Positions 4,825 through 23,573 of a stretch of DNA of 64,000 nt are shown piece by piece (within the stretch, counting starts at the first letter, position 1; the number at the start of each line of letters is the position of its first letter). Position numbers and translations under genes: made by a program. Below the pieces are notes generated by a model. It searched no databases and had not been told where the DNA came from. It saw only the letters and a program-made list of their open reading frames with translations. The DNA is from Microbacteriaceae bacterium (GTDB taxonomy: Bacteria > Actinomycetota > Actinomycetes > Actinomycetales > Microbacteriaceae), in the NCBI GenBank assembly GCA_014377425.1, contig JACMPQ010000037.1, positions 1 through 64,000 of the forward strand, read 5' to 3'.

Positions 4825-5817
4825 GTGTCAGATTCACCTGTCAAAAAAGCCTCGCCGAGAAAATTGCTACTCGTGGCGTCGTCTGGGGGTCACCTTGCAG
4901 AGCTTGACCGCCTCGTGCCAGAACTTCATGCGACCCCAGACTCGCTCTGGGTTACCTTTGACACCCCACAAAGTCGCTCGTTGCTCGCCGGGCGACGGAG
5001 AATTCATGTTCCTTATGTTCGCCCGCGGGACATCGTTGGGGTTGCCCGTGCGGCGGCCGTGATCCAACGGGTGTTGCATCACGAGAATTTCGACGGTGCG
5101 GTGAGCACCGGAGCTGCTATCGCGGTAGCGGCTCTTCCCCTTGCAGCCGCGCACGGCGTGCCAAGTCTCTACATCGAAAGCGTTTCCCGGGTCGACGGGC
5201 CGTCGTTGAGCGGTCGAATTATTGCCGCGACTCGGCTCGTGAGTCTGCGCACGCAGTATGCCAGCTGGTCGAGCGACCGCTGGAAGCTCCAGCCGAGTAT
5301 CCTGTCGACTTTTCACAGTGAGCCCCGAACGCCCGCACCCCGGCCAAGTCTTTTCGTCACCCTCGGCACCATTGAGGGTTATCGCTTTGATGCGCTCATC
5401 GATGCCGTACTCAGAACCGGGCTGGCCGATCATCGCACCGTGTGGCAACTTGGATTCACCGCCGATCGGGTTGGACTACCCGGAACCATTCACGAACAAA
5501 TGCGCTACCGCGACTTTCAGCAGGCGGCCCAAGACGCCGATGTGGTGATCACCCATGCGGGGGTCGGGAGTCTTCTCGGACTACTTGATCTGGGAATTTA
5601 TCCGGTGTTAGTGAGTCGAAGAATTAGCCGCAATGAGCACGTTGATGATCACCAACATCAGATTTCCCAGTTGGCGGGCCGTTTGGGCGTTGCCGCCGCA
5701 ATCGACGCGCCCGAACTCGACGCGGCAATCATTCATGCAGCCGCGCGCCGCCACGTGTACAACGCAGCGGCAGATTCCGTGCGGCTGGGTGAGAAATTCG
5801 AAGAGGGGGACGGATGA
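4825..5817 (+). CDS. Glycosyltransferase, fused Alg14/Alg13-like (PssD/PssE-like)
   Basis: LLLVASSGGHLAEL (Alg14-type) followed by LFVTLGTIEGYRFDALIDAV ... VITHAGVGSLLGLLDLGIYPVLVSR (GT28 C-terminal type). Confidence 0.8.
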   Translation: MSDSPVKKASPRKLLLVASSGGHLAELDRLVPELHATPDSLWVTFDTPQSRSLLAGRRRIHVPYVRPRDIVGVARAAAVIQRVLHHENFDGAVSTGAAIAVAALPLAAAHGVPSLYIESVSRVDGPSLSGRIIAATRLVSLRTQYASWSSDRWKLQPSILSTFHSEPRTPAPRPSLFVTLGTIEGYRFDALIDAVLRTGLADHRTVWQLGFTADRVGLPGTIHEQMRYRDFQQAAQDADVVITHAGVGSLLGLLDLGIYPVLVSRRISRNEHVDDHQHQISQLAGRLGVAAAIDAPELDAAIIHAAARRHVYNAAADSVRLGEKFEEGDG

Positions 5818-6920
5818 CGGATAGTGCGACCGACAGTAGTGCTAGCCGCCGCCGTACCATCTTCGTCCCCGCCCGTGGGCAATATGAGAATGTCGGGGAC
5901 ATTCTGTTGCGGCGACAACTCTTGGATTGGGCTCGCGAGAGTGGCCCGCTGCATGTGTACTTGGGTTGGTCGCCGCCCGGATATGCCGAGGGTTTGCGAC
6001 TGCAGCCTTCAGACGTGCAATATCGTTCATTTCTTCGGTGGTATCTCGTGGCGCTCTGGCAGTCACTGCGCGGGACTGCTTCCTACGTCTTCAAGCCCGG
6101 GGAAATTCAGCTCACCCTGGCGGGAATGAAAGAGCACGTCTCTATGCTGCCGGTAATTGCACTCGTGCGGGCTCGGGGCGGAACGGTTGCCCGTATCGGG
6201 GTGGGTAGTCGCAACTTTGCGTCCATTCCCCGTGCACTTATGTGGCCCTCCATCGCCCTATCCACGCTGTCGGTATGGCGAGACTCTGAGACCGCCCGAT
6301 ACTTGGGACGCGGGCAGGTAATGCCCGATCTAGCGTTCGGTGAGGTGTCAACTGAGCTGGTTTCGCGGCGCCCTGAGTTGTTGGTGATTTCTCTCCGCTC
6401 GGATCTGGGCGAGCGACCGTACCCGGGGTCGGAATGGATTAGCGCCGTTCAAAATTTCGCACAACTGCACTCTCTGGCCCTGTTCACGGTAACTCAGGTG
6501 CATGTCGACGAGGAGCGCAATCGTCGGTTGGCTGAGTTGCTCGGGGCGCAATTTTTGGGCTGGGATGGCGCGGACCATCATCTTCAGGAGATCCGGCTTC
6601 GCGAGCTTTACCGGCAATCCGCCGTCGTGGTCAGCGATCGCCTGCACGTTTTGGTTGCCGCCATCACCGAGGGGGCGGTGCCTGTGGGGCTATTGCTCGA
6701 CTCCTCAGACAAAATCGCGCGCCATTTCTCGGCCGCGGGAATGCCCGGAATTGGAATCAATGCGGGGGCGCTTTCGGCCGGAGAAATCGCCGCACACCTC
6801 GAGACATCATTAGCGCGGCGCTTCGAACTCATAGCTCTCCTGCGATCGGCCCAGAAACAGTTGAATCTCGTTCGCGAACGTCTAGGGACGGCGCTCACTT
6901 CAGCGCCCACCCGGCGATGA
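5814..6920 (+). CDS. Polysaccharide pyruvyl transferase family protein
   Basis: PARGQYENVGDILLRRQLLDW and SDRLHVLVAAITEGAVPVGLLLDSSDKI motifs; 4-bp overlap with upstream GT. Confidence 0.75.
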   Translation: MTDSATDSSASRRRTIFVPARGQYENVGDILLRRQLLDWARESGPLHVYLGWSPPGYAEGLRLQPSDVQYRSFLRWYLVALWQSLRGTASYVFKPGEIQLTLAGMKEHVSMLPVIALVRARGGTVARIGVGSRNFASIPRALMWPSIALSTLSVWRDSETARYLGRGQVMPDLAFGEVSTELVSRRPELLVISLRSDLGERPYPGSEWISAVQNFAQLHSLALFTVTQVHVDEERNRRLAELLGAQFLGWDGADHHLQEIRLRELYRQSAVVVSDRLHVLVAAITEGAVPVGLLLDSSDKIARHFSAAGMPGIGINAGALSAGEIAAHLETSLARRFELIALLRSAQKQLNLVRERLGTALTSAPTRR

Positions 6921-6960
6921 GACGACGACTTTTGAATACGGTATTGCAGGTGAAGGGGAG

Positions 6961-8070
6961 ATGAGTAGAGGCGTGGGCACGTTGAGACCGGTGGCGGTGC
7001 ACATTGGTCGAAGCGGAGAAGTGGCGGGGGGAATGGCGCAGGTACTGAATGGCTATCGCGACTGGAATTTTGATGGCTACGACATCCGCATTATCGAATC
7101 TCGGGATGGCAGCCGCGGGATGTCCGCGCTCAGGGTGGCGGTCGCAGCGGCCCGAGAGCTGTGGCAGCTTGCCGATCGACGCCACAGCGTGGTGATTGCA
7201 CACCTCTCCGAGCGCGGCTCGTTTCTGCGCGAGGGCGCCCTGCTCGTTCTGGCGCGCGCTCGGGGTTTCGCCACGGTCGCGCACCTTCACGGCAGCGACT
7301 TCGATGCATTCGCGCGGGCTCGCCCGGGTCTGGTGCGCACTGTGCTGAAGGCTGCTCTGCGGGTAGTGGTGCTGTCGGAGCGAACCGGCGCAACGGTGAA
7401 TCGGTTTGTCACCGCCGAGCGTGTGGTGCTGGTGCCGAACGCGGTACAGGAGGGGCTTTCGGTTCCGAAGGAACGGATAATCGTGTTCGGTGGAGCGGTG
7501 AGCAGGCGCAAAGGCGTCGATTTGCTGTTGGCAGCTTGGGACGTGTTGACCGAACAGGGCATAACCGCTGACTGGCGCCTCGTCATCGCCGGCCCGCTCA
7601 CCGACAGCTCGCTTCGGGAAGATCTCGAACGGAACAGGATCGGTGGGGTGGAGGTTCTTGGTCCCGTCGCCCATGACACCCTTTTGCACCTTCTCGATCG
7701 ATCGATGATCGCCGTGCTGCCTTCCCGAGATGAGGCAATGCCGGTGTTCATCCTTGAGGCGATGACCCGACGCAACTGCACGATCGCCACTAACGTGGGG
7801 GGAATCGCGGCGGTGCTGGCTGACGGGGCGGGGATGTTGATTGCGTCGGCCCAGCTAACTGCTCTGGTGGGGGCACTCGAACGTGCACTTTCTGACGAGC
7901 CTGCTCGCGCGCAGTTCGGAGACCGGGCCGCAGCCGCTGTCGAGGCCCGGTTCTCCGCATCAGTGGTGTTTCCGCGGCTGGAAGCAGTGTGGGAGAGCGC
8001 GCGAGCGGAGGCAGTCGGTGATGTTAGGCGACACAGGGCAGATTGGAGAAACCTGCCGCGGCGCCGGTGA
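6961..8070 (+). CDS. Glycosyltransferase family 4
   Basis: HLHGSDFDAFARA, VFGGAVSRRKGVDLLLAAW, LPSRDEAMPVFILEAMTRRNCTIATNVGGI. Confidence 0.85.
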   Translation: MSRGVGTLRPVAVHIGRSGEVAGGMAQVLNGYRDWNFDGYDIRIIESRDGSRGMSALRVAVAAARELWQLADRRHSVVIAHLSERGSFLREGALLVLARARGFATVAHLHGSDFDAFARARPGLVRTVLKAALRVVVLSERTGATVNRFVTAERVVLVPNAVQEGLSVPKERIIVFGGAVSRRKGVDLLLAAWDVLTEQGITADWRLVIAGPLTDSSLREDLERNRIGGVEVLGPVAHDTLLHLLDRSMIAVLPSRDEAMPVFILEAMTRRNCTIATNVGGIAAVLADGAGMLIASAQLTALVGALERALSDEPARAQFGDRAAAAVEARFSASVVFPRLEAVWESARAEAVGDVRRHRADWRNLPRRR

Positions 8071-9751
8071 TCGTATTTGAACAGGAAACAAGGGTGTTGC
8101 TAGAGCCCCGCCCCTTCAGTTCATAGACGTCGAAGCCGACCCCGGTCGAATTCACAGCACCGGTGTTGTTGGCGAAGATGTTGCGCAGTCCCCACTCCGG
8201 CATGCTGCCATTGACCTGGAAACCGTTTTTGGTACTCACGCTGCCGGTATTGGCGGTAACCGACCAGCCGTTACCCATCACCATTACCCAGCCGTCGGAA
8301 CGGGCCATGCCGTTTAGGCCGCTCAGTAAATTCCCACGAATTACCCCGCCGGTCGTGCCCTCTTTGGCGTCGATGAGTTGGGAGCCGCTTTCGGAGAGCG
8401 TGTTACCCACAATGGCGTTGCGGTCGCTGCGGTCAGGCAGGCATGCCGTGAGCGCGCACCAGTTGTTTTTAGACGATCCGATGTACACACCCTCCCCGTA
8501 AAACGGATCCAGTCGGCCGGTGCGGCGAATGGTGTTACCCACCACGGTGCTGTCGGTGGTCTGGGATTGCAGATGCACACCCTCATAACCGATTTCTTGG
8601 ATGAGGAGGTCGGAAATGGTGACGTGGTGGCTTGCCAGCACAGCGACGCCTTTGAGTCCGTTGGTAACGGTCATTCCGGTGACGATTAGATTCGAGGAAT
8701 TGTTGATGAGGAATCCGTGATTGAGGGAAATTCCGCCCACGTTGACGATCGCATCGCGGCTGCCACAAATCCAGATCGGCTGCGTGGGAGTGCCGTTGGC
8801 CGTGACCTTGATTTGACCGGTATAAGTTCCGGGAGCCAGACGAATGACGTTTCCGGGTTTGGCGTATGGCAACGCGCGAAGGAGTTCCGCGGAGTTTGTG
8901 ACCGTGACGCTGGCCGTCGGGCATTGGCTATAGCGCGCGCTGGTTACCGGAGTTTTTCCTGAAATTACTGCGATCGGTGCGGATCGCACGGACTCATTGC
9001 CGGTGAGATCTACCGCGGAGACGAGATAGCGCAGGGTACTGTCTCCCACTTCGCCGGACACCGTGAAGCTGGTGGCCGTGGGGGTTACCCAGCCGATGAG
9101 CCGCGCCGCGCCGGTGGCGGGAAGTTGGTAGACGCGGTAGCCGGCGAGGTCGCTTGCTGCGACCGGGAGCCAGCTGATTGCCGTCTGGCCCCCACTGGTG
9201 CTGGCCAGAGCGCCAGTCGGTTGCGCGGGGGCCGTGGTGTCGATCACGGTGATCGAGTCGATGAGTAAATTCTTTCCGGTTGATGCCGGATTTGAGAGCC
9301 CCGAACGTTCCACGGTGATGGTGTGCACTCCCGCCGACAGGCTTCTTGTCTGAAATACGGTCTGCTGATAGAGCGTTTGCGCGGAATAGCGGTCAACCGT
9401 GGCCACTCGCACGCCATCGATATTCACGTAGGCGATACCGGATGACGGCGTGGTGCGACTGGTCCAGCGCACGGCGGTGCCGGTGAAGGTCAGTGCGGCG
9501 GAACCGGGAAGATTGAGGTACGAGCTGGATTTTCCGCTGTCGCTGCTCGAAGACATGTTTGACCACGTGCCAGTGGACACGATTGGCGTGGCGGTATTTT
9601 CATAGACCCCAACCGGTGCGGCTGGGGTGGTGACGGTTGCGGATGCGGCTCCCGCGGTCAACGGCACCAGGGCGACCGCGATGAGCCCACCGATCATCGA
9701 TCGGACTGTGATCGCCGACCAGTGGCTGCCACCGTGATTGTTATCTGACAA
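8024..9751 (-). CDS. Secreted right-handed parallel beta-helix protein with Fn3-like domain (pectate-lyase-like fold)
   Basis: Signal peptide; Fn3-like QPTGALASTSGGQTAISWLP; beta-helix repeats GFLINNSSNLIVTGMTVTNGLKGVAVLASHHVTISDLLIQEIGYEGVHL. Confidence 0.8.
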   Translation of the reverse strand: MSDNNHGGSHWSAITVRSMIGGLIAVALVPLTAGAASATVTTPAAPVGVYENTATPIVSTGTWSNMSSSSDSGKSSSYLNLPGSAALTFTGTAVRWTSRTTPSSGIAYVNIDGVRVATVDRYSAQTLYQQTVFQTRSLSAGVHTITVERSGLSNPASTGKNLLIDSITVIDTTAPAQPTGALASTSGGQTAISWLPVAASDLAGYRVYQLPATGAARLIGWVTPTATSFTVSGEVGDSTLRYLVSAVDLTGNESVRSAPIAVISGKTPVTSARYSQCPTASVTVTNSAELLRALPYAKPGNVIRLAPGTYTGQIKVTANGTPTQPIWICGSRDAIVNVGGISLNHGFLINNSSNLIVTGMTVTNGLKGVAVLASHHVTISDLLIQEIGYEGVHLQSQTTDSTVVGNTIRRTGRLDPFYGEGVYIGSSKNNWCALTACLPDRSDRNAIVGNTLSESGSQLIDAKEGTTGGVIRGNLLSGLNGMARSDGWVMVMGNGWSVTANTGSVSTKNGFQVNGSMPEWGLRNIFANNTGAVNSTGVGFDVYELKGRGSSNTLVSCSNTITGAAAGFSNLPCVA

Positions 9752-10020
9752 AAGAAGCCCCCAAGGTATTACATGTGTGGGGGCGTGGTGGACGGCCGCC
9801 GGCGTGCCCGATGAGCTGCGGGCAAAGCATCCGGTTCGCGGAGATCAGAGGAGCGGCAAACCCCCCTGCCGCCTCTGGCTCTACGGTACCGGAAATAGTT
9901 CTCGTCAACCTGAATTCCCCTCATTTTGGGGGTGCCTGCAATCTCCCAGTCAACCAACCGCATCGGCACAAGAACCGACCGTAAAGTCGGCGCTGTTGGA
10001 GCCTAGGTTTCAATCTCGTT

Positions 10021-10039
10021 TATGGTCACCCGGACCATA
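10021..10039. promoter_or_regulatory. Perfect 7-bp inverted repeat TATGGTC-ACCCG-GACCATA upstream of the ferritin-like gene
   Basis: Seen directly in the 359-bp divergent intergenic region; candidate operator. Confidence 0.4.
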
Positions 10040-10110
10040 AAAGAGACATCATCGCTGTGCGACTCAGACGTTTTGCTGAGTGCGCGCCAGTCATTGGTTG
10101 GAGCATCATC

Positions 10111-11064
10111 ATGTTTGACAAGGGATTCATCGTTAACGCGATTAACCGCAGTGCAGAATCGCCGGTCGACCGCCGCAACTTCCTCACCGCCGCAGGTCTC
10201 ACCGGTCTCGGGGTCGGCGCAGTCGCCCTCTCCACCGGTGCGCCCGCCATGGCAGCAACCGCTGACAACGGAGCAGTCACCGACGCCGCCATCTTGAACT
10301 TCGCCCTCAACCTCGAGTACCTCGAGTGTGAGTTCTACCTGCGCGCCACGACCGGCGCGGGTCTCCCCGACGACATGACCACCGGCCTTGGCCGTCGCGG
10401 CCGCGTTGTTGGTGGCCGTGAGGTTTCGTTCAAGACCCCGACCCTGAAGAAGATCGCCATGGAGATCGCCAAGGACGAGAAGGAACACGTTGCGTTCCTG
10501 CGTTCGGCCCTCGGCGGCGCCAAGGTGTCTCGTCCCGCACTTGACCTCGACGCGAGCTTCACCGCTGCCGCCCGCGCGGCAGGCGTCGTCGGAATGAACC
10601 AGTCCTTCGATCCCTATGCAAACGAGACGAACTTCCTCTTCGCCGCCTTCCTGTTCGAGGACGTCGGGGTTACCGCCTACAAGGGTGCCGCCCCGTTGAT
10701 CACCAACAAGACCTTCTTGGAAGCCGCCGCTGGCATCCTGTCGGTTGAGGCCTACCACGCCGCGATCATCCGTACGACCCTCTTCGGCCTCGGCATCCAG
10801 ACCCCCTCGGTCTACGGTGTGGTGCAGAAGCTTTCGGATGCCCGCGACAGCCTCGACGGTAAGTCGGACGATGATCAGGGTATTGGTACCTTGGACGCAC
10901 CGAACCTGGTGCCGGTAGACGCGAACGCATTGACCTACAGCCGCAGCGCTGGCCAGGTCTTGAACATCGTCTACTTGAACCCGGCCGAGGTCACCTCGGG
11001 CGGATTCTTCCCGGCCGGTGTCAACGGTGCCATTAACAAGAGCGCAATGAGCCAGGTTTCCTAG
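10111..11064 (+). CDS. Tat-exported ferritin-like domain protein (desiccation-associated protein family-like)
   Basis: DRRNFLTAAGLTGLG Tat signal; ferritin-like helices with EYLECEFYLRAT, EKEHVAFLRSAL, EAYHAAIIR. ATG at 10111 preferred over the 10057 ORF start. Confidence 0.82.
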   Translation: MFDKGFIVNAINRSAESPVDRRNFLTAAGLTGLGVGAVALSTGAPAMAATADNGAVTDAAILNFALNLEYLECEFYLRATTGAGLPDDMTTGLGRRGRVVGGREVSFKTPTLKKIAMEIAKDEKEHVAFLRSALGGAKVSRPALDLDASFTAAARAAGVVGMNQSFDPYANETNFLFAAFLFEDVGVTAYKGAAPLITNKTFLEAAAGILSVEAYHAAIIRTTLFGLGIQTPSVYGVVQKLSDARDSLDGKSDDDQGIGTLDAPNLVPVDANALTYSRSAGQVLNIVYLNPAEVTSGGFFPAGVNGAINKSAMSQVS

Positions 11065-11166: not shown

Positions 11167-12183
11167 TCAGCTCCCGTCAGCGATTTTCAGTAGGCGTCGG
11201 TAAAGCGGCACAGACAGTTTCGCGCTTACGGCGAGCAGAAGCCGGCGCCAGTCTCGCTGGCTGAGAATCACGCCGATGGCACGCACGGTGAGCCGCCTGC
11301 GTAACTGCTGCAGGATGCGCCGACGCTCGCCGGATTCGTAGGGGTAGAGCACGGCATCCTTGATACCGGACAGCACGACGTAGCGGGCTACAAAATAGCG
11401 AAATTCACGAGAGGCAATCACACTCGGTTTGGCTAGGTGGGCGGCGCCAACAAATGCATCCTCGAGCAATCGCAACGATCGGTCTCGGCGGCGCCCCGAG
11501 CTGAGGATAGACCCCGACTGTAACCGGTAGTGGTAAACCACATCGGAAACCGTGGCGACCGTTCGGCTTTCAATCAGCAACTGACCCGTCATGGCGAGAT
11601 CGGAATGCACTTCGGCCGGAGTGAAGTCGATCCTCTCGACCACCGCGCGCCGAAACAGCTTGTTCCACAGGTGACCGGTGATTTGCCCAGTCAGGAGCGC
11701 GTTGAAGGCCGTGGTGCCCGATACCGGAAACGGAAAATGGGGGGATGCCAGCATCTTGATTCCCTTTCGTGAATGCACCTCCGCCGACCCGATAACGGTG
11801 TCGGCCCCTGTTGTCTGAGCGGCAGCGAGCATCCGCTCCACTGCCCTAGGGGGAGCGGTGTCGTCGGCATCGACAAACCAAATGAACTCGCCGTGACTCT
11901 TCCGTGCACCGAAGGCACGGGCCGCAGCAACCCCGCCGTTGGGCTCAAGCCGAAAATACCGCACGCGCGGGTAGGAGGAGGCGAGCCCGGCGCCGACCAG
12001 CGCCGTGGCATCGGTTGACCCATCGTCAACTACCACTATTTCAAGCTCGGGGAGGCTTTGTTCGAGGAGACGTTCTATGGCAGCCTGCAAAAAACCTGCG
12101 GCGTTGAAGGTCGGCAGAACAATGCTGACCCGGGGCTGGATCGTCGGTTCGTGAAGCGGGAAACTGCTCCCATGCTCACTCAC
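11167..12183 (-). CDS. Glycosyltransferase family 2
   Basis: RVSIVLPTFNAAGFLQAAIERLLEQ, VVVDDGSTDAT, FVDADDTAPP. Confidence 0.9.
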   Translation of the reverse strand: MSEHGSSFPLHEPTIQPRVSIVLPTFNAAGFLQAAIERLLEQSLPELEIVVVDDGSTDATALVGAGLASSYPRVRYFRLEPNGGVAAARAFGARKSHGEFIWFVDADDTAPPRAVERMLAAAQTTGADTVIGSAEVHSRKGIKMLASPHFPFPVSGTTAFNALLTGQITGHLWNKLFRRAVVERIDFTPAEVHSDLAMTGQLLIESRTVATVSDVVYHYRLQSGSILSSGRRRDRSLRLLEDAFVGAAHLAKPSVIASREFRYFVARYVVLSGIKDAVLYPYESGERRRILQQLRRRLTVRAIGVILSQRDWRRLLLAVSAKLSVPLYRRLLKIADGS

Positions 12184-13286
12184 CGTAGGGTCGTCTCGAT
12201 CACGCGCTCAAGGTCTCGCCCGCTCGAGGTCACCGAGAACCGCGCAAGCCACGGCTCGAGGTCACGCATCGGCAGAACCGCGGCCCGCAGCACAGCGTCG
12301 GCGAGATCCATCGGGTCGGCGCTGAGCGCGAGTTCTCCGGTGATCCCGGGAACGATGGCGTCGGCTACGCCCAACGCACCGGAGACTGCCACGGCCGGGC
12401 ATCCCGCAGCGGCAGACTCAACCAGAACGTTGCCAAACCCTTCCCGCAGTGACGGCAGGAGGGTCACCGCGTCGGCGTCGATTTCGTGAAACCAGTCGTC
12501 GATCCATCCTCTAAAGTCGCAGTCGATTCCCTTGCGCGCGGCTTCTTCTGCTAATTCATCGCGAAGAGCCCCGGCGCCGAAGCTCACAATTCGGGCGGTG
12601 ATTCCGCGCTTCTGCAGCTCCACGGCGGTTAGGACAGCCAGAAGCGGGCGTTTCTGCTCGACCAGTCTGCAGGCAAGGACCAATTGCACCCGACTCGTCT
12701 GTATTTCTCGGACGGGCCTGATGCGACCTCCGAGGTCAACCTTGGCGGTGGCGGGGTTTGGCACCACGGTGACCGTCTCGCCCGAGACCCCAAACGCAGC
12801 AACAAGTTCGGCCGCCACCGGATGCGAAATCGCGATTACGTGGTCGCTGAACCGATACAAGCACTTTGCCGCCGCAATCTTGAGCCGGTGCGACAGCCCG
12901 GCTCCGCGCAGACCCAGTGAGACCAGATTACGTTCGCTGATCAAGATTCGTGGGCGGGGGGTCCGCGGCCCGAGGGCGGTAGCTGCGAGCAGGAGCAGGT
13001 TGGGGTAGGTCTGCAGTGCGATGGCGACATCCGGTTTCTCGCTTCGCAGCATGCGATTCAGGGCGAGGGTCTTGGCCAGATGACCGCGAGATGCCTGGAG
13101 CGTTCTAACGCGAACACCGCGCGGAAGAAAGTCGGTGTCGATCTCACCGGAGGTGATAATCGCCGATACCCCATGGCCGCGTTGCGAAAGCCAAGTCATC
13201 CAGGTGCGGGCCACGAATTCTGCGCCACCCCCGCGGAGCGATGACACGACGAACAGGATGCTGCGGGGCGTGGGGGAGGCGGTCAT
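12180..13286 (-). CDS. Glycosyltransferase family 4
   Basis: ILFVVSSLRGGGAEFVARTW; LLPSLREGFGNVLVESAAAGCPAVAV. Confidence 0.88.
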   Translation of the reverse strand: MTASPTPRSILFVVSSLRGGGAEFVARTWMTWLSQRGHGVSAIITSGEIDTDFLPRGVRVRTLQASRGHLAKTLALNRMLRSEKPDVAIALQTYPNLLLLAATALGPRTPRPRILISERNLVSLGLRGAGLSHRLKIAAAKCLYRFSDHVIAISHPVAAELVAAFGVSGETVTVVPNPATAKVDLGGRIRPVREIQTSRVQLVLACRLVEQKRPLLAVLTAVELQKRGITARIVSFGAGALRDELAEEAARKGIDCDFRGWIDDWFHEIDADAVTLLPSLREGFGNVLVESAAAGCPAVAVSGALGVADAIVPGITGELALSADPMDLADAVLRAAVLPMRDLEPWLARFSVTSSGRDLERVIETTLR

Positions 13287-16249
13287 GTTCGGGTCTGATC
13301 CTTCCGGTCGAGCAGGGCGGTCGGGGTCTGGGTTGCGGTGGCGGCAGCCCTCGAATCGGCGGCCGTTTCCAGGGAGGTCAACGCCGAGAAGTTGAGCTGG
13401 GCGAGTTCGCGAAGCCGGGGCAGTCGAATGCTGATTCGCCCACGGAGTTCAATCGGATCGGCGAGAATCTGCGCCATCAGGGGAATCACCTGCTCGGCGA
13501 AACCAGCCCCCGTACAGACGCAGAGCTCGGCCGTACCGACCAGGCTGAGCATGCCCTCCACCTTGCCCTGAGTCGACACGGTGATTGCTGGAACACCACT
13601 CCAGAGTGCGTGAATGGCCAGATGCATTCGACCGGTCAACACGAACTCGGCTTCGGCACAAAGCCCACGAACTTCGGCGGGTTCCAGCAGTCGATCCACA
13701 AAAATTAGCCCCGGATCTATTGCGGCGTGCTCCGTCAATCGGCTGAACAGAACGCTGCAGGCTACTTGGTCGTCAGCGCTCGGACGGATCACGTGTGGCA
13801 ACAGCACCACGGTCAGGCCGGCATCCCGCAGCCACCGAATGACCGTGGCGTATTCGGTGGTTTGATCCATGGAGCGAGAGGTCATTCCGCTGACATTGAT
13901 GACTACGTAGCGGGGTCGGGTCTCCCCGACGCACTCGGCAATGGTCTCAGCAAGAATTGTGGTGGCCACGGTGGTGGCAGAAAAGACGGCGTCGGCCACC
14001 TCCGTCACTCCGGCTAATCCGTTGGCGCGGGCGCGGGCCGCAGAAACCGGGTCGCGTAGCAGGAGTCGGGTGCCTGCCCGGTCGGCCCGCCGGAGCGAGA
14101 TCAGGGCTCCACGGTGTGGCCGCGCATTCCAACTGAAGCCCAAAATCTGGCTGTACACCCCGGACATGCTGGCGAGGGCAGCCAGCTGTGAACGCCGCAC
14201 CGAACCGCGCGTACTGTAGACGCCGTCCATGATGTCGGCGCCGACCACCGTCACCGAGAGGGCCTTCCGCACAAGCGCCGCGTAGGCGATGATGTCGTGG
14301 CGATGGGAGCTCCCGGTGCCGTAGATGAGGGCCGGTAAGGCTAGCAATTGTGAGCGGGTGGCGTGGGAGGGCGGAATCCGGATATCGTTCACCCGCCGCA
14401 CGAGAACAATTACCCGACCCGTGGTGTTTTCTAAAAATGACTCCACCATCGACTGGTCGCCAATGTTTCCCTCCCCGGGCGGAGCGATCAACAGGTGAAT
14501 GCGCGGCGCTGACTCTTCAGAGTCGCCATGGTCGGCGATGTCACGACTAAAGCCTCGGTTGAAGGCCGAGCGGTCGAGGGCAAATCCCAACCGAGATTCC
14601 GCGAGCAGGCTCCGGATGGAGCGTCGAATTCGCCCTCGAATCGCTCGCACAATGCGGCGGGGCTTGCGGGGTTTACCGGGCTGCGTCGATCCGGACTGCG
14701 TCCTGTTTGGCGCAGTTCTGTTTCCACCGAAAAATCGTCGACTGCGCAGGATTGCCGTGAGATCTCTCCGGTAGCTGGGCCAGATTACGGCGAGTATCGT
14801 CACGGCAGCCAACAGGGTGACGCCGCCCAGCATCAGGCTGGCGAGGGGATGGTCGGTAGGGATCCACACGGTGGAGAAATAGGATGCTGCCACCGCCATG
14901 GAGCAACCCAGAACGGCGCGAACACCGCTGAGGAACATCTTCTTGGCCGGGGCGTCACAGACGCGGCTGATCCACCAGAGCCCAATCGGCCAGATCAAGC
15001 CCACGCCCAGGGAATATCCGGCGGCGACACCGTAGACGCCCCACAGTGAACCGACCAGAACGCAGGCGATCAGCAGCGGGCGGGTCGCCAACGAGAAATA
15101 AAGATTTTGGGTAGAGAGCCCCTTGGACAAAAATACCCAATAGGTGGCGTATCCGGCAGCTTCGAAGAATCCGGCAAGGGCGAGAATTTGAAATATCGGG
15201 GCCGACGCAAGCCACTGCTCGCCGAGGGCAATGCGAATTATCGGTGTTGCCTGCGCACAGCAGTAGGCGAGCACGAGGGTGGCGGTATGCAACACGATCG
15301 TCTGGCCGAGGAGGAGAAACCGGTCGTAACGATCCTTTTCCTCGTGGAGGCGAGAAAGTACGGGAAGAGCTACCCGAGTCGACGGGGCATTAATTTGATT
15401 GAGCGGAAGAAGGAGAAGTTGGAATGCTCGGTTGTATAGCCCGAGGGGGCCCGCACCGAGGGTTGCCCCGATCACCACGGAATCGGTGTTTCTACTGACG
15501 TACCCGAGCAATTGGGTGCCGGTGAGGCTGGAGGCGAACTTCAGTAGGTGGGCAAGCGGCGTGCGGCGATGAAACCGGCCGGGAAACCATCCGGTCACTG
15601 GCACCAGAAGCGCGATCGCAAATAGCCCCTGCGAAATCTGCTGACCGGCAAGCGCCCAGTACCCCAAACCGTGAATCGCCATCGTGATACCCACGGCAAG
15701 ACCGCCCAATTGGGCACCAATTTCGGTGCCCGCGAGGGGCAAGAGGCGCAGCTTGCGGTTAAGGTCGGCGCGAAACTGGGTAGAGATGCCGTTGAGCAGG
15801 AAGGTTATCGACAGGGCTTGAGTGAGGGCCAATAATCGCGGATCGCCGTACAGAGCGGCAATCGCGGGGCTGAGGAGAAACGCGGCAGCACTCAGCACCA
15901 ATCCGATCAGGCTATTAATCCAAAACAGGTTGTCCTTTTGCTCTCGACTGAGTTCGCGCGCCTGAATTGCGGCCATCGACAGTCCAAAATTTCGGATCAC
16001 CTCACCGATGCCAATGATGGCGGTGATCGATGCCACCAACCCGTAGTCGCTGGGAGCCAACAGTCGACCGAGGATGACGATTCCCGCAAGTTGCACGCCG
16101 ATGCGCACGACCTGGCCCGCGAAAGTTGCCGATGCTCCCCGGCCGGCCGCATGGGCGAGCCCGGTAGTAGACGAGGTAGGCCCGGCAGTGGAGGAGGCGA
16201 GCCCGGCAGTGGAGGCGGATGGCGCGGCGGGGAAGTCGTCGTCGGCCAT
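13283..16249 (-). CDS. Fusion: Wzx-type polysaccharide flippase (N-terminal) + polysaccharide pyruvyl transferase (C-terminal)
   Basis: Residues ~30-500 are multi-TM PST/MATE-like (ILGRLLAPSDYGLVASITAI ... NTDSVVIGATLGAGPLGLYNRAFQL). Residues ~585-960 are PPT-like (PPGEGNIGDQSMVESF ... VLTGRMHLAIHALWSGVPAITVS). One uninterrupted 988-aa ORF. Confidence 0.85.
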   Translation of the reverse strand: MADDDFPAAPSASTAGLASSTAGPTSSTTGLAHAAGRGASATFAGQVVRIGVQLAGIVILGRLLAPSDYGLVASITAIIGIGEVIRNFGLSMAAIQARELSREQKDNLFWINSLIGLVLSAAAFLLSPAIAALYGDPRLLALTQALSITFLLNGISTQFRADLNRKLRLLPLAGTEIGAQLGGLAVGITMAIHGLGYWALAGQQISQGLFAIALLVPVTGWFPGRFHRRTPLAHLLKFASSLTGTQLLGYVSRNTDSVVIGATLGAGPLGLYNRAFQLLLLPLNQINAPSTRVALPVLSRLHEEKDRYDRFLLLGQTIVLHTATLVLAYCCAQATPIIRIALGEQWLASAPIFQILALAGFFEAAGYATYWVFLSKGLSTQNLYFSLATRPLLIACVLVGSLWGVYGVAAGYSLGVGLIWPIGLWWISRVCDAPAKKMFLSGVRAVLGCSMAVAASYFSTVWIPTDHPLASLMLGGVTLLAAVTILAVIWPSYRRDLTAILRSRRFFGGNRTAPNRTQSGSTQPGKPRKPRRIVRAIRGRIRRSIRSLLAESRLGFALDRSAFNRGFSRDIADHGDSEESAPRIHLLIAPPGEGNIGDQSMVESFLENTTGRVIVLVRRVNDIRIPPSHATRSQLLALPALIYGTGSSHRHDIIAYAALVRKALSVTVVGADIMDGVYSTRGSVRRSQLAALASMSGVYSQILGFSWNARPHRGALISLRRADRAGTRLLLRDPVSAARARANGLAGVTEVADAVFSATTVATTILAETIAECVGETRPRYVVINVSGMTSRSMDQTTEYATVIRWLRDAGLTVVLLPHVIRPSADDQVACSVLFSRLTEHAAIDPGLIFVDRLLEPAEVRGLCAEAEFVLTGRMHLAIHALWSGVPAITVSTQGKVEGMLSLVGTAELCVCTGAGFAEQVIPLMAQILADPIELRGRISIRLPRLRELAQLNFSALTSLETAADSRAAATATQTPTALLDRKDQTRT

Positions 16250-16251
16250 GG

Positions 16252-17481
16252 TCAGCGTGGGGCGTTGTTCACGACGTCAGGTGAGGAAGATAATACCGAT
16301 GGCGATACCGATGGCGATGGCGATGGCGGCGCGGAGGGGGACGGCACCCGCTCCAACGGTCCGGGGAGTCGCTGCCGGCGCAGTGCGGCTCGGGCCGCGA
16401 GATAGGCACGGTAGGTTGCCTCGCCAATGGTGCTCCAGTCTCGGCCGGAGAGTTCGGGCTGTGCTGATCGCGGGTCCGAGCGGAGCTTGTGAACTGCGGC
16501 TTCCAGAATCGCAGGATTCAGCTCGCCCGAGTAGGTGTACACCCAGCCCTCTCCCACTTCGGCTGCCAGAGCCTGATTAGCGGCGCTATCCGGCACCAGC
16601 ACTGGGCGATTCAACGACAGCGCTACCAAGACCGAGCCCGAGTTGTGCATCTCCCGGTAAGGCAGGACCACCAATTCCGCCAGGCCCACTTCGGTCACCA
16701 ATTCGGCGTCGGACACAAAGCGCAGGCACGCCGACATGCGGTCGTCTTCGAGTAGTGCGGCCTCGACAACGGGACCGAGCCCGTAGGAGGGGCGGCCAAC
16801 GATTCGCAACTGGAGATCGGGATCCGTGATGTGGTGAAATACGGCCAGTAGGTCTTCCACGCCCTTGTAGGGTCGAATGAGGCCGAAATAGAGCAGGCGC
16901 CCGGGGAGTGTTGCCGGGCAGTGCAGTTCGGCAAAGCGATCGCGATAGTGCCCGTGGGCGATGGTGAGCACGGTGCCGTTCGATACGGTGCGGTTCGATA
17001 CTGCGCCGCTGGATACTGCGCCGCTGGGGATCGGGGTGGTGGGATTCAGCCGGATGAAGACCGCGGTGCACCGATCCACGCTCGCCAGAATTCGATCCTC
17101 GGCTGGCCGCCCGGCCTCGTGCGGACGCAGATTGTGTACCGTGCGGATGACTGGAACGCGCAGCATCCGGCAACGAACGAGCACTACGCGCAGCGCGCCG
17201 CGCCGCAGGAGGGCCTTCGCGGCGCTCGGGTCTCGTACGACAAACTCAGGCCAGTGCAGGTGCAGCAGGTCGTAGCGCCCGAGGAGAGCCCCGCGCCAGG
17301 AGAAGAACCTCACCGTCAGCTCAGCCGGTGCACCGCCGACGACCTGATCAATGTAGCGGGTTGTGCCGTTAGGAGCGCTAAGGGAGTGCAACACAGTGAG
17401 GGGCGGTCGGGATGGAAGAGGATCAGTACCCGGTGGAGTAGTTTCCGGGGCGCCGCTGGCTAGGTCAACGCGCGGCGTCAT
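16252..17481 (-). CDS. Glycosyltransferase (GT4-like)
   Basis: TVHNLRPHEAGRP, RLLYFGLIRPYKGVEDLLAVF, VVLPYREMHNSGSVLVALSLNRPVLVPD. Confidence 0.78.
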   Translation of the reverse strand: MTPRVDLASGAPETTPPGTDPLPSRPPLTVLHSLSAPNGTTRYIDQVVGGAPAELTVRFFSWRGALLGRYDLLHLHWPEFVVRDPSAAKALLRRGALRVVLVRCRMLRVPVIRTVHNLRPHEAGRPAEDRILASVDRCTAVFIRLNPTTPIPSGAVSSGAVSNRTVSNGTVLTIAHGHYRDRFAELHCPATLPGRLLYFGLIRPYKGVEDLLAVFHHITDPDLQLRIVGRPSYGLGPVVEAALLEDDRMSACLRFVSDAELVTEVGLAELVVLPYREMHNSGSVLVALSLNRPVLVPDSAANQALAAEVGEGWVYTYSGELNPAILEAAVHKLRSDPRSAQPELSGRDWSTIGEATYRAYLAARAALRRQRLPGPLERVPSPSAPPSPSPSVSPSVLSSSPDVVNNAPR

Positions 17482-19013
17482 GGGAAAAAGGCTTTCGGTG
17501 GAGGCATCCGCCGAGCCTGTACCGCTTTGCTGGCAGAACCGTGTTTGCGGTCGGCAGAACTACTTATGGCATGCACGTTTTCAGTGTCCAGGTTCTCGTT
17601 CAGGGTGACGATGAGCAGGCAGCCGAGAAGCAAATGAACGGGCCGCAGCGCATCGATAGCGTTGAAGCTCGTGATGCAGGCGGTGAACACCACGAGGGCT
17701 GCACCCGCGGCAACGTCTCGCCGACGGAGGGCGGCCAGCACGGCGAAGCCGATCATCCCGAGGAATAAAACCACCCCGGGGATTCCGACACTGATCAAAA
17801 GCTGCAGCAGAGAATTTTCGATAACGACACTGTCGAAGAGCCGACCGGTGATGCCGGATGTGCCGGGGCCGGTGCCGAGCCAGTCGGGGGCTTTGGCGGC
17901 CTGAACTGCGACCCAGATGCCAACGTCGCGCGCCTGCGAAGATACCGCGGCCTCCGTGGAGCTGTTGCGCTCCTGAAAGGCATCATTGCTCAGGAGAAAT
18001 CCGACACCGGCCGCACCAATCACCGCAACAAGAGCTACCCGTGACCAGCGTTTACTGCCGCGAAGGGCAATCACCGCGATGTAGGCCAACCCGATGGCTC
18101 CGGCCGAGGCCAGGAGTGGACCGCGCGAAACGGTGACAATGAGCGCTAGTCCGCTGATCACAGCCGCCGCCAGCGGCCACCGCGAGCGATTGGTGAGCCA
18201 CTGGGTAATAGCGAGAACCCCGGTGACGGCGAAGAACAGCGCTGCAATCAACGGATGGCCAAAGGATGCCTCGGCGCGGTAGACCGACCAGTGTTGGGAG
18301 TCGACAACTCCCAAAGCGACATAAAGCCTCCCCCACACCGGATTGCTGCCGAGCAGCGCCTCCCCGAGGGCGTAGCAACCGAGCACCGCCCCCAGCATTA
18401 GCCAGGTCTGACGCAACAGCCGCGCTTCGGCTTTGGCGTCGGTAATCAGCAGCGGCAAAATCGCCCCGGCGATGAAACTGATCAGCCAACCGGCCGAGGT
18501 TTGCAAGTGAACCGAGCGGGACAAAACGAACACCGACCACAGAACGAAGCCGACACCGCTGATTCGTGCCGCCAAAGCGAGGCCGGAGCTGCCTGAGACG
18601 GAGCTGCCTGAGACGGAGGGGGGCGATGCCGTCAACGCGGGGTGCATTCGCAGGAGTCGACGCAGGGCCCAGATCGCGAGCACGATGGTGGCGATCGGGA
18701 GTGCTGCCAGGGGACCTTCTTGCGGAAGGATGCGGGCCGGAAGTAGGGAAAAAATCACGAGGCCGATTGACGGCAGGGCGTGAACTGGAATTACAAAGAG
18801 CCCGATGAGACCCAGAAACGCCAGGAGACCGATCGGGATAATCGCAAAACCGACCGAAGTGAGGTAGTTAGGTGCGACGGCGCTCGCCGCCAGAACACCC
18901 ACCGCGCCCGTCGCCACGGCAAGTGCCATCGGTGCGGACGGCAGGGTAGGTATCAACTTCACAGAGACGGGGCCTTTCGTCTGTGCTGTGGTCGACCTGC
19001 AGCGGTGGGGCAA
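17478..19013 (-). CDS. O-antigen ligase/polymerase-like membrane protein (Wzy-type)
   Basis: Multi-TM; SRGPLLASAGAIGLAYIAV, GTGPGTSGITGRLFDSVVIENSLLQLLISVGIPGVVLFL typical of Wzy/O-antigen ligase family. Confidence 0.8.
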   Translation of the reverse strand: MPHRCRSTTAQTKGPVSVKLIPTLPSAPMALAVATGAVGVLAASAVAPNYLTSVGFAIIPIGLLAFLGLIGLFVIPVHALPSIGLVIFSLLPARILPQEGPLAALPIATIVLAIWALRRLLRMHPALTASPPSVSGSSVSGSSGLALAARISGVGFVLWSVFVLSRSVHLQTSAGWLISFIAGAILPLLITDAKAEARLLRQTWLMLGAVLGCYALGEALLGSNPVWGRLYVALGVVDSQHWSVYRAEASFGHPLIAALFFAVTGVLAITQWLTNRSRWPLAAAVISGLALIVTVSRGPLLASAGAIGLAYIAVIALRGSKRWSRVALVAVIGAAGVGFLLSNDAFQERNSSTEAAVSSQARDVGIWVAVQAAKAPDWLGTGPGTSGITGRLFDSVVIENSLLQLLISVGIPGVVLFLGMIGFAVLAALRRRDVAAGAALVVFTACITSFNAIDALRPVHLLLGCLLIVTLNENLDTENVHAISSSADRKHGSASKAVQARRMPPPKAFFP

Positions 19014-21347: not shown

Positions 21348-23573
21348 ATGCTCGTCAAACTCAGATTTCCGCTCGGCACTATCACCGTGCTTCTTGCCTC
21401 AGTTCTTGTGTTACCGGGCGAACTGGCGTTTGCCGGAATCACTCAGCTAACCACGGCGTCCGACCGATCGCTGCCGGCCGGCATGCCCACGACTAATACA
21501 GTTTCAGATGCTGCCGCATCCGATCTCGATCCGAGTGGGTCCGATTCCACCGAGCTGCGGCTTCATGGCGAACCAGCCAGTACTTCAGCGACGATCACCC
21601 TCAGCGGAACGCTTTACGTCACGGCAGATGAGTCTCCTGCCTACGCCTCTGTTTCCGCGGGCAGGGTGGATGGAACCACGGTGGATGGAACCACGGTGGT
21701 ATTGAGCAAGCGACCCTCGAGCGTCGCTAGGTATGCCGTGCAAACCGCTGGCGGCCCGCTCGTTACCATCAGCGGAACAGTACCCGAGGGGACCCAGAGC
21801 GGCGGAACATTCACCGGAACGGTAGCCGTACCGACGGCTGTCACCGCAGCGCTCCCCAGTAACGCCGCGGCGGAGGTCGCACGGGCGGTTGGCAAGGTGG
21901 CACTCGCTCAGCGCGCTCCGATCTCTGCCGAGATTTTTGCTGCCGCATTAGAGATGGAACTGCCCCTACCGATTTCCGAAGCAACGGTCGCTCCTCGTCC
22001 GATTACGGCTGTTCGGACCGCACCGCAGAAAACGGGGACCCCAACGGTCCCGGAACGGGCCACGGCTCGCGCGACAAACAGCGCCGCTCCGCATAACCTC
22101 GTGATTGTCGCCGTTCAGCCAACCGACACCACACCCAGTGACTACTCCGACGCGATGATTACCGCAGCCACCAACCCGGCTGCCGCCTTTTGGCAAACGA
22201 CTTCCCGGGGTCTGATCTCGTCGTTCGGTGAGAATTCTGTTATTCGGGATCTGGTAAGCGTGAACCCATGTGCGGTGAATCCGTTTGTTCGGTGGGATGA
22301 GGCCGTAAAGTTTTTGGGCTACGCCGATCTCAATGCCTTTCTTGTCGGAGGGGGGCATCATTTGATTGTGGTTCTCCCCGCGGGCTGTGTCGACAAAACA
22401 AGTGCGGGTGTCGGAACCGTTGGCAGCGCCCTGGGCGATGGGGGGTTTTTGGAATTTATTAGCGGCGCAGGAGCCGACAAACAGACCCTAATTCACGAGT
22501 TAGGGCACAATTTTAGCCTTGGACACTCCAACGTCGACTTTTGCCCTGTGGCCGCTCCCTCGGCGAGTTGCACAGAGCATGAATATGCCGATATTTACGA
22601 CGCCATGGGGATGGGATTTGCGGGCTTTGACGGTCCGCTCGCGCTGAATAGTCGCGCACAGGTGGCTTTGGGTTTCATAACGGTTCCGGTGGCGCGTCGG
22701 TTTGCGCTGGCAAGTAATGAAAGCCAGCGTTCTTTTTCCGTCACGCTCAATACGGTCAAAAGTGGGGCCGATCCGATCACCTTCGAAGCGATTGACCCCG
22801 AGACGGGTGCCGTGTTGTACGGCGAATATCGCGCCGAAGAGCCGAACGCGTTTTATTCTCGCGGCTATTTTGTAAATTTCGGAACCGATCGACTTCGCTA
22901 CCTACCCGGGGTTCGTCTCCTGCGGGGCACCGGCGGAAATGGATCGTCGGCTTTTTCCCGGCCGGGTGCTGACGCCGGTGTCAATCTCGTGGCAGCGGCG
23001 GTGGGTCAAACCGCCGGCAACGGTACCGGCTCCGTGTCGACGGTGGTGAGCGCGGGCAGCACGGATAGCACCGTGATCGTTCAGGTGACATTAACCAGGG
23101 CAAGTGTTCAACCGGTGGCAGCATCAGACGTTTATCGGTTCTGGAGCAGCGCATTCTCCGCCCATTTTTATACCAATAGCATCGCCGAAAGGGACGCCGT
23201 GATCGAGCGATTTCCAACGGTCTGGGCCTATGAGGGCGCCAAATACAAAGCCTTTGGTTCCGAGGTGCCCGGTTCGATTCCGCTATATCGATTCTGGAGT
23301 GCTCGCTTGCGCGGCCACTTTTACACGGCGAGCGCCGCTGAGAAGGATCTGGTGGTTTCCCGCTGGCCCGAAACCTGGACCTACGAGAAGGTGGCGTATT
23401 GGGTGTACCCCTTGGATACAACGGTGACGAATACCAACGAGGTTTCGCGCTTCTGGAGTGATCGGTTTAGGCATCATTTCTACACTTCCGACGTGCAGGA
23501 ACGCGAGGCGGTCAAGTCGCGCTTTTCCACGGTCTGGTCTTTTGAAGGCGCGCGATTCCGGGTACCTGTCTAG
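21348..23573 (+). CDS. Secreted zinc-metalloprotease-like protein with three C-terminal FWS/HFYT repeats (DUF5648-like)
   Basis: Signal peptide; HELGHNFSLGHSN; repeats YRFWSSAFSAHFYT, YRFWSARLRGHFYT, SRFWSDRFRHHFYT. Confidence 0.78.
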   Translation: MLVKLRFPLGTITVLLASVLVLPGELAFAGITQLTTASDRSLPAGMPTTNTVSDAAASDLDPSGSDSTELRLHGEPASTSATITLSGTLYVTADESPAYASVSAGRVDGTTVDGTTVVLSKRPSSVARYAVQTAGGPLVTISGTVPEGTQSGGTFTGTVAVPTAVTAALPSNAAAEVARAVGKVALAQRAPISAEIFAAALEMELPLPISEATVAPRPITAVRTAPQKTGTPTVPERATARATNSAAPHNLVIVAVQPTDTTPSDYSDAMITAATNPAAAFWQTTSRGLISSFGENSVIRDLVSVNPCAVNPFVRWDEAVKFLGYADLNAFLVGGGHHLIVVLPAGCVDKTSAGVGTVGSALGDGGFLEFISGAGADKQTLIHELGHNFSLGHSNVDFCPVAAPSASCTEHEYADIYDAMGMGFAGFDGPLALNSRAQVALGFITVPVARRFALASNESQRSFSVTLNTVKSGADPITFEAIDPETGAVLYGEYRAEEPNAFYSRGYFVNFGTDRLRYLPGVRLLRGTGGNGSSAFSRPGADAGVNLVAAAVGQTAGNGTGSVSTVVSAGSTDSTVIVQVTLTRASVQPVAASDVYRFWSSAFSAHFYTNSIAERDAVIERFPTVWAYEGAKYKAFGSEVPGSIPLYRFWSARLRGHFYTASAAEKDLVVSRWPETWTYEKVAYWVYPLDTTVTNTNEVSRFWSDRFRHHFYTSDVQEREAVKSRFSTVWSFEGARFRVPV

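Follow-up and report, generated by a model that had tools for sequence, protein, structure and literature searches.

A single gene in the Microbacteriaceae window (the whole 64,000-nucleotide stretch of DNA analyzed here) joins a Wzx flippase to a polysaccharide pyruvyl transferase (PPT) in one chain of 988 residues (Table 1). We favor, with a probability of roughly 0.6, the reading that its product serves a Wzx/Wzy exopolysaccharide (EPS) pathway as a bifunctional pyruvyl transferase-flippase tethered to the membrane, working by proximity hand-over, with pyruvylation not strictly required for flipping. We infer that the cytoplasmic C-terminal PPT would place a ketal pyruvate on the Und-PP-linked repeat unit, here among the last cytoplasmic steps, and that the pyruvylated unit would be passed to the Wzx of the same chain. 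This N-terminal half, with 14 predicted transmembrane (TM) helices, would then flip the unit, by now negatively charged, to the outside for use by Wzy. The single chain would fix the two activities at a 1:1 ratio and hold the finishing enzyme close to where units enter the flippase.

The earlier note had described an unbroken 988-aa frame that unites a flippase with a complete PPT, and both points were borne out. The frame opens with ATG and runs along the minus strand without an internal stop. In Pfam searches, the flippase half matched Polysacc_synt_3 (PF13440; residues 59-351, 1.5e-67) and PF01943 (2.3e-42), and the PPT half matched PS_pyruv_trans (PF04230; residues 656-893, 1.3e-13, 51.9 bits vs. 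a cut-off of 25.3). The top NCBIfam flippase model was PRK10459 (MOP flippase), which we take to be of the WzxC type, scoring 208 bits and thus falling under its cut-off of 273. The flippase half belongs to the Wzx/PST branch of the MOP flippases, and flipping activity is predicted.

Table 1. Features of the Wzx-PPT fusion gene and of its surroundings, in window coordinates.
Feature	Position	Strand	Basis or remark
Wzx-PPT fusion gene	13283..16249	-	988 aa, one open frame
Wzx/MOP flippase half, residues 31-507, 14 predicted TM helices	14729..16159	-	Pfam, model, fold matches, charge
Disordered tether (predicted), residues about 510-531	14660..14722	-	pLDDT < 50 in model
Basic amphipathic helix (predicted) RRIVRAIRGRIRRSIRSLL region, residues 531-551, at the place of the ancestral PPT N-terminus	14597..14659	-	
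PPT half, residues 577-973, predicted GT-B-like fold	13331..14521	-	Pfam, conserved residues, model
GNxGD motif, residues 594-598	14456..14470	-	D598 = Pvg1p proposed catalytic D106
RDPxS motif, residues 732-736	14042..14056	-	R732 = Pvg1p R217 (PEP contact)
GRMH motif, residues 873-876	13622..13633	-	R874 = Pvg1p R337 (PEP contact)
Fusion stop / GT4 start, 4-bp overlap	13283..13286	-	
GT4 glycosyltransferase, lying downstream in every fused cluster and most split ones	12180..13286	-	Pfam, cluster comparison
GT2 glycosyltransferase	11167..12183	-	Pfam, cluster comparison
GT4 glycosyltransferase, upstream partner	16252..17481	-	Pfam, cluster comparison
Wzy-like polymerase (Wzy_C)	17478..19013	-	Pfam
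Second, separate PPT-family protein, same cluster	5814..6920	+	Pfam

An AlphaFold (AF2) model of the fusion (pLDDT 88) predicted 14 TM helices, a disordered stretch, an amphipathic helix, and a globular PPT. Foldseek searches retrieved WzxE (9g9p, TMt 0.79) and MurJ (6nc6, TMt 0.77) for the flippase half and GT-B epimerases and transferases for the PPT half, while phmmer searches of each half separately against the PDB gave no relevant match. With both termini placed in the cytoplasm, the flippase loops carry 14 K/R inside vs. 2 outside, and the linker region holds a further 20 K/R. Given this positive-inside pattern and the K/R-rich linker, the TM topology analysis that the earlier note had proposed returned a PPT half predicted to lie in the cytoplasm, on the same side as PEP and the growing repeat unit. 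The maximum hydrophobic moment of the amphipathic helix, 0.83, was reached by 1.3% of shuffles.

A PPT half lacking its catalytic residues, a prospect raised earlier, was not what we found, as the conserved residues were all there. Across 20 aligned proteins including Escherichia coli WcaK, which is 16% identical in this comparison, 16 columns were invariant, among them N595, G597, D598, R732, S736, R874, H876, and K896. In a profile search, the PPT half aligned with Pvg1p (5AX7; E 0.012), whereby D106, R217, and R337, the proposed catalytic residues of Pvg1p (PMC4872226), landed on D598, R732, and R874 at one constant numbering offset. From this conservation, we infer that the PPT half transfers ketal pyruvate from PEP. 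The PF04230 and Pvg1p matches are modest at these E-values and 5AX7 was absent from the Foldseek top 50, hence the half may instead catalyze another PF04230-type transfer.

The fusion gene lies in a minus-strand run of Wzy-like, GT4, fusion, GT4, and GT2 genes that overlap by 4 bp at three of the four junctions, with a 2-bp gap at the fourth, between the end of the upstream GT4 gene and the fusion start. The overlap with the downstream glycosyltransferase, put forward earlier in support of an operon, was thus confirmed, and the run is tight. Wzy_C, BY-kinase/Wzz, and the glycosyltransferases near the fusion are genes of a Wzy-dependent cluster. The order Wzy-GT4-WZX-PPT-GT4-GT2 was conserved across the compared clusters, which often also encoded a beta-helix protein and a further PPT-like one. 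Cryobacterium clusters have one or two relatives of the second PPT-family gene of the window; each repeat unit may receive pyruvate twice, or this second protein may have another role.

The surroundings of the fusion hold further genes. A probable ferritin-like gene, recognized by eye (10057-11064, plus strand), sits between the beta-helix and GT2 genes inside the EPS cluster. A secreted metalloprotease-like protein (HELGHNFSLGH) is encoded at 21348-23573 (plus strand) and carries the repeat pattern YRFWS..F..HFYT.S..E.D.V three times at its C-terminus. On contig C78 of the same genome (L074), another EPS locus (8054-9397 and 9453-10940) has a gene for an unfused flippase with a PPT-family gene immediately after it.

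When Microbacteriaceae were surveyed, as the earlier note had suggested, the fusion recurred in Cryobacterium. Among 400 Microbacteriaceae genomes, a single frame over both halves was found only in the window and in four Cryobacterium genomes. Scanning one genome per species recovered the fusion in 12 Cryobacterium genomes at 58-60% identity, and in Pseudomonas, Halopseudomonas, and Nocardioides both proteins occurred as separate adjoining genes. An unbroken full-length fused frame, 58-61% identical to the window protein, was present in 16 of 57 sampled Cryobacterium genomes. A class-wide Actinomycetes sample held no Wzx-PPT fusion beyond those already found, and no plasmid record had one place covering 80% of the fusion protein. 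In samples of 397 Actinomycetota and 349 Pseudomonadota genomes, none of the 30 long PF04230 frames contained a flippase half; one locus (L106) was uninformative owing to an internal stop. Sampled Pseudomonadota frames of this family showed other arrangements, being apparently fused to a GT4-like domain (L108), with TPR-like repeats ahead of them (L112), or arranged in tandem (L113). The two halves, the adjacency of their genes, and the pathway are all of kinds already known. A Wzx-pyruvyl transferase fusion was not reported in the open-access literature that we searched. Nor do these papers describe the single chain, its restriction to Cryobacterium and the window lineage, or the occurrence of fused, split, and PPT-deleted states side by side.

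In other Microbacteriaceae genera, the same cluster encodes WZX and PPT as separate ORFs, nearly all of which share a 4-bp overlap, ATGA or a variant of it. The separate PPTs begin with a basic stretch, e.g., MRRRIQSRMLRGWRDL or MIRRIIGRTKK, and the "linker" of the fused proteins is therefore the Wzx tail followed by the old PPT N-terminus. The basic linker described in the earlier note is therefore not special to the fusion, as split PPTs have a basic N-terminus at that place. By sequence comparison, the fusion arose from the merger of two overlapping neighbor genes, which were probably translationally coupled beforehand. Since wzx and ppt were already overlapping neighbors, what fusion contributes to their partnership is a tether and a fixed 1:1 ratio. 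Because genes that overlap by 4 bp lie in different frames, the simplest route to the fusion would be a stop-removing indel.

All fused proteins grouped together in the first trees. The single origin read from these was dropped once two Cryobacterium-group genomes with split, 4-bp overlapping wzx/ppt (L102 and L103) were added. The best trees then placed the split pairs beside the window or between the window and the fused Cryobacterium clade, a placement that requires two changes, the fusion having either arisen twice or arisen once and been split again; one fused clade was not rejected (AU p 0.414). On these trees, the fusion happened once or twice.

The best tree, in which split pairs separate the window from the fused Cryobacterium clade, speaks for the idea that an assembly or sequencing artefact joined two genes in the window. 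We nevertheless regard such an artefact as extremely improbable, since the same architecture occurs in 16 Cryobacterium genomes and a single-origin fusion was not rejected. Moreover, the window linker showed no leftover of a stop/start overlap in its other frames, and at each codon position its base composition is similar to that of the Cryobacterium linkers. For the family as a whole, an assembly artefact is ruled out by the 16 fused Cryobacterium genomes, and chance or error is excluded because stop-free full-length frames in 16 of 57 genomes are joined by purifying selection on both halves.

Across 13 fused Cryobacterium genes, the median dN/dS was 0.09 for the flippase, 0.16 for the PPT, and 0.39 for the linker. 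Both halves are constrained and hence very probably functional in fused Cryobacterium. The fast evolution of the linker is also what would be seen had the fusion been near-neutral, in which case the 4-bp wzx/ppt overlap would have lost its stop and the halves would still work, independently, joined by a link without function. Overlapping neighbors are one indel away from fusion, and the fused gene is scattered within a single family, where some lineages have lost or split it. We nevertheless consider near-neutrality rather unlikely, given that the distant window lineage and no fewer than 16 Cryobacterium genomes have kept the frame free of stops, and that the fusion possibly arose twice. For the tethered transferase-flippase that we prefer, the benefit of fusion may still be small, as it is patchy (16 of 57 Cryobacterium) and was undone once.

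This loss occurred in Cryobacterium genome G1517 (L101), where the flippase gene (5855-7531; 70% identical) has lost the fused PPT in frame while the rest of the cluster is intact. The start of the linker leads straight into a short tail ending HRQGPT, similar to the PHRQGPA end of fused relatives, and the DNA aligned with that of fused relatives up to the linker and again from within the next gene, leaving out the PPT. No PPT ortholog was found elsewhere in the G1517 genome, in which PF04230 otherwise matched just two other genes of the cluster. Most simply, G1517 would be a natural deletion of the PPT half.

A flippase kept without its PPT half is evidence against the obligate quality gate suggested in the earlier note, in which Wzx would move only units that its own PPT had pyruvylated, via domain contact or pyruvate recognition. 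In favor of a gate, the halves are physically linked, and Wzx flippases can be inefficient if a terminal residue that they require is missing (PMC6436433); likewise, repeat units receive their ketal pyruvate prior to export, and succinoglycan pyruvylation by ExoV matters for polymerization and export, which are impaired by ExoV loss (PMC6801904, PMC4496566). Yet the joint is flexible and fast-evolving rather than a rigid interface, and most relatives do the same job with split pairs, such that an obligate gate seems doubtful. The same doubt attaches to a self-gated exporter, whose PPT half would hold the flippase closed or guard its entrance so that only units pyruvylated by it pass. If true, this would be the first case of a flippase whose own finishing enzyme licenses transport.

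The coupling of late decoration to flipping of lipid-linked sugars is mostly examined in systems of separate proteins, whereas one chain covalently links both steps here. The fusion thus offers a test bed for this coupling, which is directly testable because one group holds fused, split, and PPT-deleted versions of the cluster. By the gene-fusion argument, it is also evidence that Wzx and WcaK-type enzymes generally work side by side.

Among known systems, the split Microbacteriaceae pairs (L060-L064, L068, L069, L072, and L073) have adjoining orthologous halves and the same surrounding glycosyltransferases. Their halves, and those of the Pseudomonas and Halopseudomonas pairs (L023-L025), are about 44-58% identical to the fusion, from which split pairs differ in being two ORFs, mostly with a 4-bp stop/start overlap. 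The Pseudomonas and Halopseudomonas wzx-ppt pairs, at 44-49% identity to the fusion halves, lie beside cpsB- and wcaJ-like genes, and their similarity to the actinobacterial halves suggests transfer between phyla. Mycobacterial MviN/MurJ, likewise a MOP flippase, resembles the fusion in carrying an additional cytoplasmic domain at its C-terminus; unlike the PPT, this domain is a regulatory pseudokinase and not a pathway enzyme. The colanic acid operon wzxC-wcaK-wcaL of E. coli K-12 (NC_000913 b2046-b2044) has the same order of flippase, pyruvyl transferase, and GT4. WcaK and WcaL perform the last two steps of colanic acid assembly, whereby pyruvylation is among the last cytoplasmic steps (PMC12826051), as we propose for the fusion. 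The E. coli proteins are, however, separate, and WzxC and WcaK are 27% and 22% identical to the fusion over part of their length. Sinorhizobium ExoV and the flippase ExoT, which are unfused and likened to the fusion by function, provide a further parallel, whereby the lipid-linked succinoglycan unit is pyruvylated before export (PMC6801904, PMC4496566), as proposed here.
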